Shown in pieces: positions 54,718-60,711 of a stretch of DNA of 64,000 nt. Each line of letters begins with the position of its first letter. Position 1 is the first letter of the stretch. The position numbers and the translations under genes were made by a program. The DNA is from Acaryochloris sp. CCMEE 5410 (lineage in GTDB: Bacteria; Cyanobacteriota; Cyanobacteriia; Thermosynechococcales; Thermosynechococcaceae): assembly GCF_000238775.2 (NCBI RefSeq), contig NZ_AFEJ02000001.1, positions 2,976,001 to 3,040,000 on the forward strand. Direction: 5' to 3'. The notes under the pieces were generated by a model that was not told the DNA's origin, made no database searches, and saw only the letters and a list, made by a program, of their open reading frames with translations.

Positions 54718-55857
54718 CAAATCCGACTCATTAACTCCCGAAATATCTTATCTGTCAAGCTGGCCACCAATGGTAGTGAGTGAGAGCTTTAATGTCTGAT
54801 TGCATGGTCATTAAAGTTCGACAGCGCTGCTCGAGCACATCTTCCAACTCATCCAGGGTCTCAAAGCATCGATTGGCCAGTGGTTCGTCCGCTAGCCGCC
54901 ACAACCGTTCAGCGGGCTGTAGCTCTGGAGAATAGGGGGGTAAAACCTTCAGATGAATGCCAGGTGGCACCACCCGATTCTTACAGGTATGCCATCCGGC
55001 TCCATCGAGAACGAGAAGAATCTGTTTGTGCTTTCCCGCTCCAACTTGCTGAGCAAAGCTTTGTAGGGCTTGATTAAACCATTCTCCATTGACCCGAGGC
55101 AGAATGAACCATTCGGTATTGCCAGTTGCGGGATGAACGAATCCGTATAGATAGGTCCATTCATAGCGATGGTCCACCTCAGCAATTGGACGCTGACCCA
55201 CAGGCGCCCAAATCTTTCGAATAATGGGTTTAAGGCCTAAACGATGTTCATCAAAAGACCAAACTTCGACCTGAGCATTAGGGTAGCGTCGCTCCAATTC
55301 TGCTTTGTACTCAGGCAGTTTTTTAAAAGCGGCTTGGGCCTCTGGTTCACCTTTACGGTGGTGAGGACGTGGGCATTGCAGGGACTGCTCCAATCGCTTG
55401 AGATAGTCCCAACCTCGTTGGGGCCAAACCTTATCGACTCCTGTCATCTGAGCAATGACCTGGGCTACTTTAGGTCCGTTCCATAGACCACCGTCGGCGG
55501 GTGGGGTTTGTAGACGAGTCAACAATTGTGCACATTGGTCTTGAGTCAGAAGACTGCGAGATTGATGAGGTCGCTTATCTTTGCGTCGGTTGCGTAACCC
55601 ATGGGCGCCATTGTGGTTATACTCCCTGACGATTTCTCGAGCGTAATCGTAGTTGAGACCGACCACTTGGGCTGCTTGAGTTAGCGTTGTTTGCTCACTG
55701 ACGAGCCATAGTAGATGCCAGCGGCGCGATTCTACTGGGTCTTGGCTGGCTCGATAATGAGACTTCAGCTCCTCGGGCGAAAAATGAGGTTCGAGATATA
55801 GTTTTCTTGGCATTCTCTAATTATGTATTATATCGGAGTTATATAAATCGGATTTGG
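54718..55857 (-). mobile_element. IS630-family insertion sequence
   Basis: A 1140-bp element flanked by TA at 54716-54717 and 55858-55859, the classic IS630/Tc1 target duplication. The inverted ends both begin CCAAATCCGA, followed by a shared AACTCC a few bases in. The single transposase frame is intact, so the copy may be active. Confidence 0.85.
54755..55813 (-). CDS. IS630-family transposase
   Basis: An intact 352-residue DDE transposase in a single frame. The N-terminal helix-turn-helix region includes TLTQAAQVVGLNYDYAREIV. The catalytic core shows VWSFDEHRLGLKP (first Asp), LLVLDGAGWHTCKN (second Asp) and LPPYSPELQPAERLWRLAD (final Glu). No frameshift is needed, unlike many two-frame IS630 copies. 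Confidence 0.92.
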   Translation of the reverse strand: MPRKLYLEPHFSPEELKSHYRASQDPVESRRWHLLWLVSEQTTLTQAAQVVGLNYDYAREIVREYNHNGAHGLRNRRKDKRPHQSRSLLTQDQCAQLLTRLQTPPADGGLWNGPKVAQVIAQMTGVDKVWPQRGWDYLKRLEQSLQCPRPHHRKGEPEAQAAFKKLPEYKAELERRYPNAQVEVWSFDEHRLGLKPIIRKIWAPVGQRPIAEVDHRYEWTYLYGFVHPATGNTEWFILPRVNGEWFNQALQSFAQQVGAGKHKQILLVLDGAGWHTCKNRVVPPGIHLKVLPPYSPELQPAERLWRLADEPLANRCFETLDELEDVLEQRCRTLMTMQSDIKALTHYHWWPA

Positions 55858-55907: not shown

Positions 55908-56528
55908 ATGCCTTTACCCAAGAAAAACTATTTCTCTTCTCTTGTAGCTCGGGATCCCCATGAACCTTATCGCGCTGCTACTCAACTAGAACTACTTTTT
56001 GATTTAGTAGTAGTAATTGCGATCGCAACTTCAGCCCATGGATTGACTCATGAGTTAAGTGAAGGTCATTTTGTGATGGGGATTATCAAATTTCTCCTAG
56101 CCTTTTTTATTTTGTGGTGGCCTTGGAATTTATTTACCTGGTTTGCCAGTGGCTTTGATAACGATGATGCTGCTTATCGTATCAATGTGATGGTGATGAT
56201 GATTGGCATTATGTTGGTGGCAGCCAGTATTCCTACTATTTTTCAAGGTGGAGAAATCGTCTATGGATTTATTGGCTATCTGATTTTGCGAAGTGCCGCT
56301 GCTGTTTTATGGCTAAGAATTAAAGACAAGAGTCCTCAACTAAAAGTTACGGTGCAAAGGAATGTCATAGGACAAATAATAATTCAGAGTTTTTGGGCAT
56401 ACATCGTCTTTATGACAGAGCCTTGGAGCATGATATTTTTTATTTTAGTAGCAATTGCTATTGCTGCAGAACTCTTTCTGGGAGCGTGTCACTTCTTTGA
56501 GAGGAAAATGATAATTGATCTTAGATGA
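55908..56528 (+). pseudogene. ltrA: ltrA-like membrane protein gene, 5' part
   Basis: This is the N-terminal half of a low-temperature-requirement-A-like membrane protein: RDPHEPYRAATQLELLFDLVVVIAIATSAHGLTHEL, then several membrane helices. Host sequence ends at 56479. The remaining codons to the stop at 56526-56528 come from the inserted ISKra4-type element. Joining 55908-56479 to 57651-58272 gives 398 codons in frame through AELFLPWYAGQAKNTPWH, so the gene was intact before the insertion. LtrA function is poorly understood. Confidence 0.85.
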
Positions 56529-57641
56529 TCCCTCTTATTGACTATGACACCAGAAGAAGAACAAGAATTCAATGCTTGCGTCACACGCATTTCAGAACTG
56601 CTGTATCAAGACTCCCAATCCCAGTCTCTGCCCATGAAGACTTTGGCAGAGATTGAATGCACCGTTCGGACTCAACTGCAAACTCATGTGTCGCCTCAAA
56701 TGGGTCTTTTTTATCGACCAAGTTAGCCCGCCAGATGTCGGAGAATATCGACGGACCTTAAAAAGCATTCTGGGCAAACTCAACCTCACTCGGACCCAAG
56801 CAACAGCCCTCAAGGTCAAGCCCAACAGTCAGTTAAGCCCCTACTTAGAGATGTGCGCCCTGCGTATTAGTGCCAATGTTTCCTATGCCCATGCATCAGA
56901 GGATCTAGCAGTTTAACGGGTATCACAGTCAGCTCCAAAACGCAGCAGCGTCTCGTTCATCGTCAAACCTTCAGTCCACCCTCTTTGACGCAAGGAGTCA
57001 CTCAGCTCAGCTTAGATGGGGGCAATATTCGGTTGATTACTCCAAAAGGGGAACCCTGCCACTGGCGTGGTTATAAAGCAGTTCGCATCAATGGCGATAG
57101 GGTTGGCTTGGCCTACTATCAAGACCATACTTCCCTCTGCCTGGCGGTGAACCGCTTCAGATTTGCTGCAAGGGTTTACTGTCTTGGGGATGGTCATGTT
57201 GGGATTTGGAAGCTTTACCGACAGATGAGACTGCCAACTCAACAGGAGCAGATCCTAGACTGGTTCCACTTGATGGAGAATTTACATAAAGTCGGTGGGT
57301 CACTCAAACGGCTGCAGCAAGCTGAAACCTTTTTGTGGAGAGGGAAGATTGATGAGGCCATCGATTTGTTCTGTGGTTTGAGCAAACCTCAGGCTAAACG
57401 GTTCTGTCAGTATTTGCGAGACCACCGAGAGCGGATTCCCAACTATGGTTACTATCAAGCTGAGGGAATACCCATTGGCTCTGGTGCCGTTGAGTCGCTT
57501 GTTAAGCAAATTGACCGAAGGACAAAGATTTCAGGTGCGCAATGGCAAGAAAAACATATCCCCAAAGTCCTAGCTCATCGCTGTGCCTATCTCAATCGAC
57601 AACTTGACTCTATTTTTCTCCTGAAAAAGTGACACGCTCCC
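56480..57641 (+). mobile_element. ISKra4-family insertion sequence inside ltrA
   Basis: A 1162-bp element with terminal inverted repeats beginning GGGAGCGTGTCACTT at both ends. It is flanked by a perfect 9-bp duplication ACTCTTTCT at 56471-56479 and 57642-57650. The insertion is recent by this criterion. It differs in sequence and ends from the decayed ISKra4-type element at 19.8-21.3 kb. Confidence 0.9.
56538..57632 (+). pseudogene. ISKra4-family transposase with two frame breaks
   Basis: Three segments of one transposase. The first break is at a T6 run near 56710 (expected QMGLFIDQVSPPDVGEYRR), needing one base fewer or two more. The second is near 56912, where GCAGTTTAACG lacks a T (expected EDLAVLTGITVSSKTQQR). 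The segment from 56985 carries LSLDGGNIRL, a core LGDGHVGIW and the C-terminal GIPIGSGAVESLVKQIDRR with ISGAQW. The net span of 1095 bp equals 365 codons after one deletion and one insertion. Programmed slippage at the T6 run is a possibility for the first break. Confidence 0.78.
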
Positions 57642-57650
57642 ACTCTTTCT

Positions 57651-58272
57651 TCCATGGTATGCAGGACAAGCAAAAAATACTCCCTGGCATCGTCACCATG
57701 TTATTGAACGTTTTGGTTTACTGAATATTATTGTTTTAGGAGAGATTTTACTGAGTAGCGTTCATGCTATTGAAACATCCACTAGTAGTAGCTTTAATTT
57801 TTCTCTGATGATTCTAGCAATCAGCAGTGCAGCGATCTCTTTCACTATGTGGTGGCTTTATTTTTGTGAAGAAGAGCATTTAGAAAGTATAGAAAATAAA
57901 CGTACTTTTGTTTGGGCATATGGTCATTTCATCGTTTTTGCCTCTGGAGCAGCCACTGGGGCGGGCTTAAGCTTAATGGCAGAACTTATGAGCGCGACAC
58001 ATCATGAAGGAAAACATCTTTCACCAGAAACTGCAGCTTGGGCAGTTACAATTCCTCTAGCTTTATACGTAATCGGTTTATGGTTAGTACGAGATCGCTA
58101 TCAATTAAATAATTTTAATGGCTCCTGCTTACTCTTTTTTGCTTTATTGATTTGCTTAAGTGCATTGTTACCCTATCAGCCAATTTTTTCATTAGTCTTA
58201 TTAATTGCTTGTCTATTCTTTAGGTTAAACGTTGCTAATAATTCTGAAGCGAAACTAAAAATCCAAGAATAA
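57651..58272 (+). pseudogene. ltrA: ltrA-like membrane protein gene, 3' part
   Basis: This is the C-terminal half of the ltrA-like gene cut by the ISKra4-type element. It opens with PWYAGQAKNTPWHRHHVIER and continues with the helices FGLLNIIVLGEILLSS, SLMILAISSAAISFTMWWLYF and others to the stop at 58270-58272. The next available ATG in this frame (57808) lies inside the domain, so an independent product is unlikely to be functional. Confidence 0.82.
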
Positions 58273-58432: not shown

Positions 58433-58454
58433 AAGATACAAGGCTATCTGAACA

Positions 58455-58576
58455 AAGAGCATGTCACCTTTGCAAGCTAGTATTTATACTCATCTCAGAA
58501 ATCTTTGCTGGCCTTGCTTTCAGACACCAAATTTTTAATTCTCAACTTTGTACATCTGCAAAGGTGACATGCTCCC
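58455..58576. mobile_element. MITE-like element related to the ISKra4-type ends
   Basis: A 122-bp non-coding element. GAGCATGTCACCTTTGCA on the left and TGCAAAGGTGACATGCTC on the right form a perfect 18-bp inverted repeat. It is flanked by a direct repeat CTATCTGAACA (58444-58454 and 58576-58586; 10-11 bp). Its ends resemble the GGGAGCGTGTCACTT ends of the neighbouring ISKra4-type element, which could supply the transposase in trans. Confidence 0.8.
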
Positions 58577-58590
58577 TATCTGAACATCAA

Positions 58591-59229
58591 TCATCCTCCC
58601 GTTCTAGTTCCATATGCTGCGAGAAATACATCCACGGCTTCACGACATTGGGTCTTAAGTGCAGATTTTTCAGGTGGTTTCTTGCCGATCTGAGTTTGTA
58701 GCAAATCCACCCCCAGCATTAAACCAATGAGTTGTTCTGCGGCGCGACGTGGATTCTCAACCTCAAGCAGCTCCGCTTTCGCCTGACTCGCAACGTACTC
58801 GGTTAAATGCTGGATGGCGCGAGCGGGTCCAGCCTGATAAAACGCCTCGCCCACTTCCGGATGTGCAATCGCTTCAGCCGTAGCCAGGCGGTTCCAATAA
58901 GTCTGGTCTGGAGATAGAACGAACGACAGAAATACATCTCCGAAGCGGATCAGATCGTCTTCAGGGTCATTGGTTGGAATCAGCAGTTTTTTGAAAACAA
59001 CACTTCCCTGTTCAGCATGTTGATTGATCACAGCCTCGAACAGCCCCGCTTTTGATTTGAAATGGCTGTAGACCGTCGGTTTCGTGGTTTGTGCTTCTGT
59101 GGCGACCTTTTCCAAGCTCGTTTGTGAGTATCCCATCGCGAGAAAAAGTTCAGTTGCAACGTCGAGAATCCGCTGCCTTGTAGAGCGGGCTTTCTGAGTA
59201 CGGAGTGGAAATTTTGTAGTGTCATTCAT
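58591..59229 (-). CDS. TetR/AcrR-family transcriptional repressor
   Basis: A 212-residue regulator. The N-terminal helix-turn-helix is typical (RQRILDVATELFLAMGYSQ, then LEKVATEAQTTKPTVYSHF), and the C-terminal ligand-binding region is helical. It is divergent from the carotenoid oxygenase gene, and the intervening 75 bp contain a perfect inverted repeat (59250-59284). The probable mode is repression of both genes until a small ligand binds. Confidence 0.9.
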   Translation of the reverse strand: MNDTTKFPLRTQKARSTRQRILDVATELFLAMGYSQTSLEKVATEAQTTKPTVYSHFKSKAGLFEAVINQHAEQGSVVFKKLLIPTNDPEDDLIRFGDVFLSFVLSPDQTYWNRLATAEAIAHPEVGEAFYQAGPARAIQHLTEYVASQAKAELLEVENPRRAAEQLIGLMLGVDLLQTQIGKKPPEKSALKTQCREAVDVFLAAYGTRTGG

Positions 59230-59249
59230 ACCAAAATTTTACATGTTGC

Positions 59250-59284
59250 ACTTGACTTTACTAAACGGCATAGTAAAGTCAAGT
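59250..59284. promoter_or_regulatory. Probable TetR operator, 14-bp inverted repeat
   Basis: ACTTGACTTTACTA (59250-59263) and TAGTAAAGTCAAGT (59271-59284) are perfect reverse complements around a 7-base spacer AACGGCA. The site lies 21 bp from both the TetR start (59229) and the chosen oxygenase start (59305). The TTGACTTT could double as a -35-like element. Confidence 0.8.
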
Positions 59285-59304
59285 TGAGACGAAGACTTTA
59301 TCAC

Positions 59305-60711
59305 ATGGAGTCCAACTACCCACTGGGTTATTCAATCTCTTACCTGGAGAATCCTATGCTGACTGGTATGAATCGTAGCCTGACTAAAGAACACGACTGG
59401 ACCCCACTTCGCGTTGAGGGGGACCTTCCTAGAGACCTTAGCGGCACGCTGTATCGCTGTGGGCCATTGTCTCGTGAGTCCCAAGGGGCTTTTATTCCCG
59501 ACATTATTCAGGGCAATGGAGGCCTCGCAGGGGTGAGGTTTGCCAACGGCACCGTCTCTGGCGCGGCTAAGATCCTGCAAACTCGCGAGATGCTTGAAGA
59601 AGAAACTGCGGGAAAAGCGCTGTATAGTCCTGCAGCTTCAAAAGTTGCCAATTTCATGAGTGGCCTGCAGGGCAAGCTTAAGAATGTCGCTAACACACAC
59701 GTTATTCCACAGAATGGAGAATTGTGGGCTCTCTACGAATTGAGTCGCCCAGTCAGAGTTGATCCGGACACTCTAGATGTCCGTGAAGAGACCACACTCA
59801 ATGGCGTGATTGCGAACACGTTCTCTGCTCATCCTCATCGGGTGGAGGTTCGGAAGGCGCTCTACAATTTTGGGGTGGTTAATGGGCGAGAACCACGAGT
59901 TGACCTATTCGAGCTGCCCGACCGGGGTTTACCTCGCAAGCTTGGCGAGGTTCCACTGAGTTACAGCACCTTTGTGCATGACTTTATGGCTACGCCGAAC
60001 TATCTAGTTCTATTCATCTCTCCCATTCGTCTAGACGGTTTGCGGTTACGCCTCGGTCTTGGAGACTTCAAAGATCTCGCTCATTGGGAGCCTGAAAGAG
60101 GTAGTGAGGTCATCGTCATTCCGATCGATACACCAGAGAAGGTGACGCGCTTTAAGGTCTCTCCCTTCCATGTATTCCACTTTGCCAACGGGTTCGAGAG
60201 CGATCAGATGATCTATATTGATTTCTGTTACTACGACAATTTCTGGATGGAGTTCGAGGCGGCTGTAGGCGCAGAAACTGCATCTCCAGGAGGCCCACTG
60301 ACGCGGGCTAGGATTGATGTGGCACGCGAAACCTTCGACCTAGAGCACCTTACCGATCTCAAATCCGAGTTTCCGATTGTTCATCCCAGAATTGGAGGAG
60401 ATGAACATAACGTGGTGTTTTCCGTCACCCAAACTCCTGACAACGGTGCTTTACGCCATAGCATTGTCCGTTACGAGGCAAGTGGAGAAACATCCACGTT
60501 GATGGAGCTTGGCCATATAGCATCGGAAGCGGTATTCGCACCTCGCTCAGACCACGAAACCGAGGGATGGCTACTCCCCCTTGTCTATGACCCCAAGGCT
60601 GATCAAAGCTACATCAGTGTCATCGAGACTAAATCGATGACGGAACAGGCTCGGTGTTGGTTCGACCACCATATTCCCCTCACCTTCCACGGCAGTTGGG
60701 TGGCGGCATAA
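59305..60711 (+). CDS. Carotenoid cleavage oxygenase (RPE65 family)
   Basis: A 468-residue non-haem iron dioxygenase that cleaves carotenoid or related polyene double bonds. The four iron-binding histidines can be placed in FSAHPHRVE, TFVHDFMATPNYLVLF, FHVFHFANGFE and, at the C-terminus, TFHGSWVAA. The family opening ENPMLTG...GDLPRDLSGTLYRCGPL is present. ATG 59305 is preferred to the upstream TTG 59284, which lies in the operator; ATG 59356, with GGAG before it, is an alternative but would trim the conserved start. The substrate is unknown; control by the divergent TetR is likely. Confidence 0.85.
   Translation: MESNYPLGYSISYLENPMLTGMNRSLTKEHDWTPLRVEGDLPRDLSGTLYRCGPLSRESQGAFIPDIIQGNGGLAGVRFANGTVSGAAKILQTREMLEEETAGKALYSPAASKVANFMSGLQGKLKNVANTHVIPQNGELWALYELSRPVRVDPDTLDVREETTLNGVIANTFSAHPHRVEVRKALYNFGVVNGREPRVDLFELPDRGLPRKLGEVPLSYSTFVHDFMATPNYLVLFISPIRLDGLRLRLGLGDFKDLAHWEPERGSEVIVIPIDTPEKVTRFKVSPFHVFHFANGFESDQMIYIDFCYYDNFWMEFEAAVGAETASPGGPLTRARIDVARETFDLEHLTDLKSEFPIVHPRIGGDEHNVVFSVTQTPDNGALRHSIVRYEASGETSTLMELGHIASEAVFAPRSDHETEGWLLPLVYDPKADQSYISVIETKSMTEQARCWFDHHIPLTFHGSWVAA

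Follow-up and report, generated by a model that had tools for sequence, protein, structure and literature searches.

Type I MITEs with a known or proposed full-length insertion sequence (IS) partner that has matching ends have already been described. For example, Nezha of Anabaena and Nostoc is reportedly a type I MITE, a short element bounded by inverted repeats (IR), which a full-length IS with matching ends moves or is proposed to move. In Microcystis, a 187-nt MITE is associated with ISL3, as stated in the part of PMC11448079 that concerns it. Among the full-length elements, p-MULT 4 transposases are characterized in the relevant sections of Guerillot et al. 2014 (PMC3942029) by target duplications of 8 or 9 bp and IRs of 18–39 bp, and in the ISMich2 group of p-MULT 4 a -1 frameshift connects the two ORFs that encode the transposase. 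The word MITE is absent from the main text of PMC3942029. Literature containing both 'ISKra4' and 'MITE' includes no title on such an element, and a search of the texts of papers for six end strings as letters returned no cyanobacterial paper by title. ISAcma18 of Acaryochloris marina is named in a passage of PMC3129680; the ISAcma elements of ISfinder come from the same genus as the IS-A and IS-B elements described below, and one of these two may already be registered among them.

The new element reported here is an ISKra4-type MITE of 122 bp in the window, by which we mean the whole 64,000-nt stretch of Acaryochloris sp. CCMEE 5410 DNA that was analysed (contig C1 of the 8.09-Mb genome G000). 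It resembles Nezha, in a comparison made by description and not by sequence, in being short, IR-ended and accompanied by a matching full-length IS. The same likeness links it to the 187-nt MITE of Microcystis, which also has a full-length IS with matching ends as its known or proposed mover; however, the ends of that element are of the ISL3 type (PMC11448079), whereas those of the Acaryochloris MITE are of the ISKra4 type. We are highly confident in reading this feature as an ISKra4-family type I MITE that is non-autonomous, lacks a transposase gene and is very probably served in trans by IS-A. Direct support comes from its copies, matched ends, target duplications, one empty site and a two-frame transposase with a slippery heptamer. 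The mechanism is ordinary and well supported, and what remains of interest is a subterminal dyad, termed HP1, together with the size that the element has kept.

The perfect 18-bp inverted repeats reported by the first-pass annotation are present at positions 58457–58474 and 58557–58574 of the window. The annotation also gave a target duplication of 10–11 bp, the longer reading being the direct repeat CTATCTGAACA at 58444–58454 and 58576–58586. Comparison with the 14 other copies in the genome places the borders at 58455–58576 (plus strand, HP1 end at left), with a 20-bp family end, GGGAGCATGTCACCTTTGCA. With these borders the duplication becomes the 10-bp TATCTGAACA at 58445–58454 and 58577–58586; in the right-hand repeat, the C that opens the 11-bp reading already counts as the final base of the element. 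The left terminal inverted repeat (58455–58474, plus strand) has the tip AA, where most other copies have GG, and the right one (58557–58576, minus strand) agrees with the family form at 20 of 20 bases. HP1 occupies 58478–58491 and reads TAGTATTTATACTC, with the inner 12 bp AGTATTTATACT; its family form, according to copy comparison and dyad counts, is RAGTA-N4-TACTY. An LtrA-family gene and a TetR-family gene face each other with their 3' ends, and the MITE sits in the gap between them. The TetR-family regulator and a carotenoid-oxygenase-like (RPE65) gene, which are divergent, adjoin the MITE (58591–60711), and a further transposase-like ORF, IS630-like by eye, lies on the minus strand at 54755–55813.

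Altogether, the Acaryochloris genome holds 15 such elements of 121–123 bp. Thirteen of them are 94–100% identical to the window copy, and two are diverged (77% and 74%); both 18-bp ends equal GAGCATGTCACYTTTGCA exactly in 13 of the 15. Exact target duplications likewise flank 13 copies (9 bp in eight, 8 bp in four and 10 bp in one), the duplication of the L007 copy has one mismatch in 9, and the L014 copy has none. Set against the consensus of the 13 close copies, the window copy has seven substitutions and every other copy at most two differences; as judged from these counts, the window copy is probably the oldest of this close set. We sought empty sites of three insertions (window, L008 and L006) in six other Acaryochloris genomes. 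For L008, genome G001 has a clean empty site, in which GAGGCCAAA is found once. At the window site the same genome lacks the MITE, but the left flank is replaced by other sequence, which on our reading of its translation holds a transposase remnant. For L006, only matches of the right flank were obtained in the six genomes. The first-pass annotation proposed a search for further copies and their flanking duplications, and was to be given up if the element proved single-copy in all genomes and without empty sites; instead, there are 15 copies, most with exact duplications, and a clean empty site.

The full-length partner with matching ends is IS-A, an ISKra4-family element with 14 full copies of 1141–1147 bp in the assembly, all outside the window, whose ends are identical to the 20-bp MITE end at 20 of 20 positions. 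A zero-mismatch scan of the genome with the 18-base inner end returned 55 matches, of which 26 belong to 13 MITEs, 28 to the 14 IS-A copies and one to a truncated IS-A; with up to two mismatches allowed, the reversed-pattern control gave 1 match versus 69. Target duplications of IS-A are exact in 14 of 14 copies and 8–9 bp long. Compared with their majority sequence, the copies (L016–L029) show single-base indels and no substitutions, suggesting that IS-A has been active recently; the indels have the appearance of sequencing or assembly errors, which disrupt reading frames in this genome. ORFA and ORFB of the L017 copy overlap, and an in-frame U UUU UUA heptamer lies where a -1 shift joins them. 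ORFB scores 274.1 bits with the ISKra4 transposase model NF033572 (NCBIfam, cut-off 205). The first-pass description of the MITE ends as ISKra4-type holds. The 20-bp IRs and 8–9 bp duplications of IS-A lie within the p-MULT 4 ranges, a likeness shared by IS-C, a related IS from another Acaryochloris genome that is described below. In both, the layout of two ORFs with a predicted -1 frameshift resembles that of the ISMich2 group as outlined in PMC3942029, to which we provisionally assign them on this layout.

Under the proposed mechanism, full-length IS-A transposase would be produced by -1 frameshifting at U UUU UUA, would bind the MITE ends in trans and would insert the MITE with a mostly 9-bp target duplication. 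It should be noted that the action of this transposase on the MITE is deduced from sequence comparison. The interior of the MITE has no match in IS-A beyond the ends, the terminal 20–23 bp being all that the two have in common, and IS-A is thus not established as its source; because the shared part is so limited, the MITE may rather have arisen by internal deletion from an IS-A relative carrying HP1, like IS-C. The MITE comes with a partner IS, an internal contrast (IS-B, of the same family, for which no MITE was found at zero mismatches), copies of varied divergence and an empty site, a combination that makes trans-mobilisation directly testable.

Beyond this genome, plasmids from Acaryochloris 'Moss Beach' and from A. 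marina MBIC10699 carry close MITE copies (91.8–92.6% identity), and a copy of the f31 type is found on a Microcystis aeruginosa plasmid (91.7% identity). Such copies in the plasmid records compared (three from Acaryochloris and one from Microcystis) suggest transfer between lineages. In a DNA search with one MITE (E ≤ 1e-4), where two candidates were scored per genome, 14 of the 388 genomes sampled from the class proved to contain relatives. A covariance model built from 18 elements, run under tighter filtering and scoring nine candidates in each genome, gave matches in 39 of the 388 genomes from 12 families (E ≤ 0.001); copy numbers are lower bounds, since a limited number of candidates was scored in each genome. 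A representative of 118–124 bp is present in 24 of the 388 genomes from 9 families (one or more elements read per genome, that of G133 being weak). The other 15 of the 39 genomes comprise seven from f16 and two from f11, which match in the ends only, three from f24 with elements of 174–185 bp, and G019, G101 and G197 with 134, 111 and 60 bp, respectively. Exact duplications of at least 8 bp flank 14 of the 24 representatives and not the other 10, with a tolerance of up to 3 bp in the placement of the borders. We do not count the matches in f16 (136–160 bp) and f11 (90 bp) as members of the family, as by eye they share the ends and neither the interior nor HP1. The f16 elements (L158, L159, L161–L163, L165–L171 and L173) are themselves MITE-like, with nearly the same ISKra4-type ends; their interior, however, is unrelated and abounds in inverted repeats of the CCCTCTCC type, and they are possibly another MITE family using the same transposases. 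No match was found in phages or, with the exact pattern, in viral contigs. A Terrisporobacter contig (L062) matches the pattern of end plus dyad, for which we estimate that about 0.5 such matches are expected by chance.

The relatives differ in their termini. Elements of f31 and f9 have CTCA/TGAG-type ends (CCCA/TGGG in G344), whereas the others mostly have GTCA/TGAC. In alignment A2 (42 sequences, largely gathered by the model), columns 10 and 123 form G-C in 20 of 41 distinct rows, C-G in 11, G-U in two and no pair in eight; the two ends have changed in step, as a single transposase reading both would lead one to expect. In the set gathered by end plus HP1, where the interior was not used, the interior similarity between Acaryochloris and f31 elements was reached in none of 500 permutations. 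For Acaryochloris versus f7/f25 it was reached in 15 of 500 and for f7/f25 versus f31 in 32 of 500, both being weak. The larger model-gathered set, which is partly selected for likeness, has interior scores above the shuffle means in six of six group pairs (z 1.9 to 9.3). Matched end changes with similar interiors would allow a parasite to be followed as it tracks its transposase.

Among the alternative explanations, a chance inverted repeat is refuted by the 15 elements with common borders and duplications in the one genome, 13 of them with both 18-bp ends exact. Another concerns the neighbouring IS-B, an ISKra4-family element at 56480–57641 (plus strand) with ends GGGAGCGTGTCACTT, which splits the LtrA-family gene (55908–58272) and is flanked by the 9-bp duplication ACTCTTTCT at 56471–56479 and 57642–57650. 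The first-pass annotation related the MITE to this element 800 bp away, and a derivation from IS-B with movement by it would fit their common family and similar ends, the better IS-B end having two mismatches to the 18-base pattern. The ISKra4-type character of the ends was borne out, but when they were compared with those of the strain's ISKra4-family elements, the best match proved to be IS-A, identical at 20 of 20 positions, and the 13 close MITEs all retain IS-A-type ends. The window copy of IS-B is 57% identical to IS-A ORFB over residues 81–313. The 21 zero-mismatch IS-B ends in the genome form 10 pairs about 1.16 kb apart and one solo end, and the duplications are exact and 8–9 bp long in nine of nine examined; despite these 10 full copies, no IS-B-ended miniature form was detected at zero mismatches. 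On the end comparison and the absence of such miniatures we reject IS-B as the partner, an origin from it being very improbable.

A second alternative is that a host function, as a structured RNA or regulatory hairpin, maintains the 122-bp repeat, with mobility being secondary. It draws on the similar element size over 9 families, on the Acaryochloris and f31 interiors, more alike than in all 500 permutations, and on the strong folds of individual copies (z -8.9 for L003, for example), although most of the fold energy is contributed by the 20-bp inverted repeats. On the 18-sequence alignment, the terminal stem is all that RNAalifold predicts; on subgroups, helices in the interior are added, among them HP1 and a central hairpin in one group of 19 sequences, but the three subgroup structures differ from one another. 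Relative to the named structure, A2 has 38 cells changed on both sides as compared with 27.1 (sd 4.3) in shuffles, 3 of 500 of which reach 38; however, these two-sided changes fall mostly in the terminal repeats, HP1 varies chiefly on one side, and 57% of cells are paired in the central helix. Six loci gave no Rfam match at E ≤ 1, and five of the 13 insertions examined fall within a stop-to-stop frame of at least 500 nt or at its edge. A functional RNA is therefore not favoured, given the lack of an Rfam match, the terminal-stem-only fold and the inconsistent subgroup structures, and we give a host function very little credence next to the mobile MITE served by IS-A.

The HP1 dyad, RAGTA-N4-TACTY, lies about 23 bp from one tip in most of the 118–124 bp elements. 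Five Watson-Crick pairs are formed at the motif of the left end in 12 of the 24 representatives, and by eye HP1 is recognisable in 22, the exceptions being those of G002 and G133. At the opposite end, five pairs occur anywhere in one of 24, a contrast favoured by the definition of "left" as the HP1 side; in the same search space, 724 of 20,000 random 80-mers have five such pairs. In A2, the five pairs are standard in 88% of cells and the variation is mostly one-sided, which speaks more for a conserved palindromic sequence than for RNA covariation. A search with end plus HP1 gave matches in 14 of the 388 genomes, the reversed-pattern control being 0 for all entries listed. Autonomous ISs are among the matches: L180 (1186 bp) and L184 (1188 bp), with the duplications ATTGTCGTA and CCTGCAGGT, respectively. 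The long ORF of L180 passes the ISKra4 model with 243 bits (cut-off 205), whereas a 112-aa piece of L184 scores 99.7 bits, below the cut-off. The dyad is found at the same position also in the other end of L180, an end outside the search pattern; the other end of L184 has the motif with two G-U type pairs, the best dyad reported there by the script being a different one.

IS-C (L226, 1217 bp, 8-bp duplication GTATACCC) from Acaryochloris genome G005 was found by protein search alone, with 68% identity to IS-A ORFB and one stop in the match. It has the same two-ORF, U UUU UUA layout as IS-A, its first 19 bases equal the MITE end, and each of its ends has a perfect dyad at position 23. The two dyads, GAGTA-AAAA-TACTC and AAGTA-ATTG-TACTT, differ in both members of the outer pair. 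A dyad scan of the ends of IS-A, IS-B, L224, L228 and L231 detected no HP1 motif. The restriction of HP1 to one set of ISKra4-family ISs suggests that the MITE probably descends from that set, though IS-A now shares its ends. In L180 and L184, HP1 at one end falls inside the transposase frame; the reading of HP1 as a mere trace of C-terminal transposase codons is nevertheless rejected, as L226 and L180 have HP1 at the transposase-5' end too and the MITEs retain it without a transposase.

We tentatively propose, as a possibility that we would not yet favour, that the dyad is a second cis-acting site, for a transposase or a host factor, at one or both ends of the MITEs and of several autonomous ISKra4-family ISs. 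The 122-bp MITE would then be an old cyanobacterial lineage keeping this site and its size while both terminal repeats shifted in parallel (GTCA/TGAC to CTCA/TGAG, also CCCA/TGGG) as it followed different transposases from one family to another. We met no description of such a site in the portions of the literature covered. If the dyad is a second recognition site, it would add to the picture of how bacterial Mutator-like transposases recognise their ends. Finally, larger miniature forms of 174–185 bp (L126, L131 and L133, from the f24 genomes) have HP1-like dyads at both ends and target duplications of 8–9 bp.
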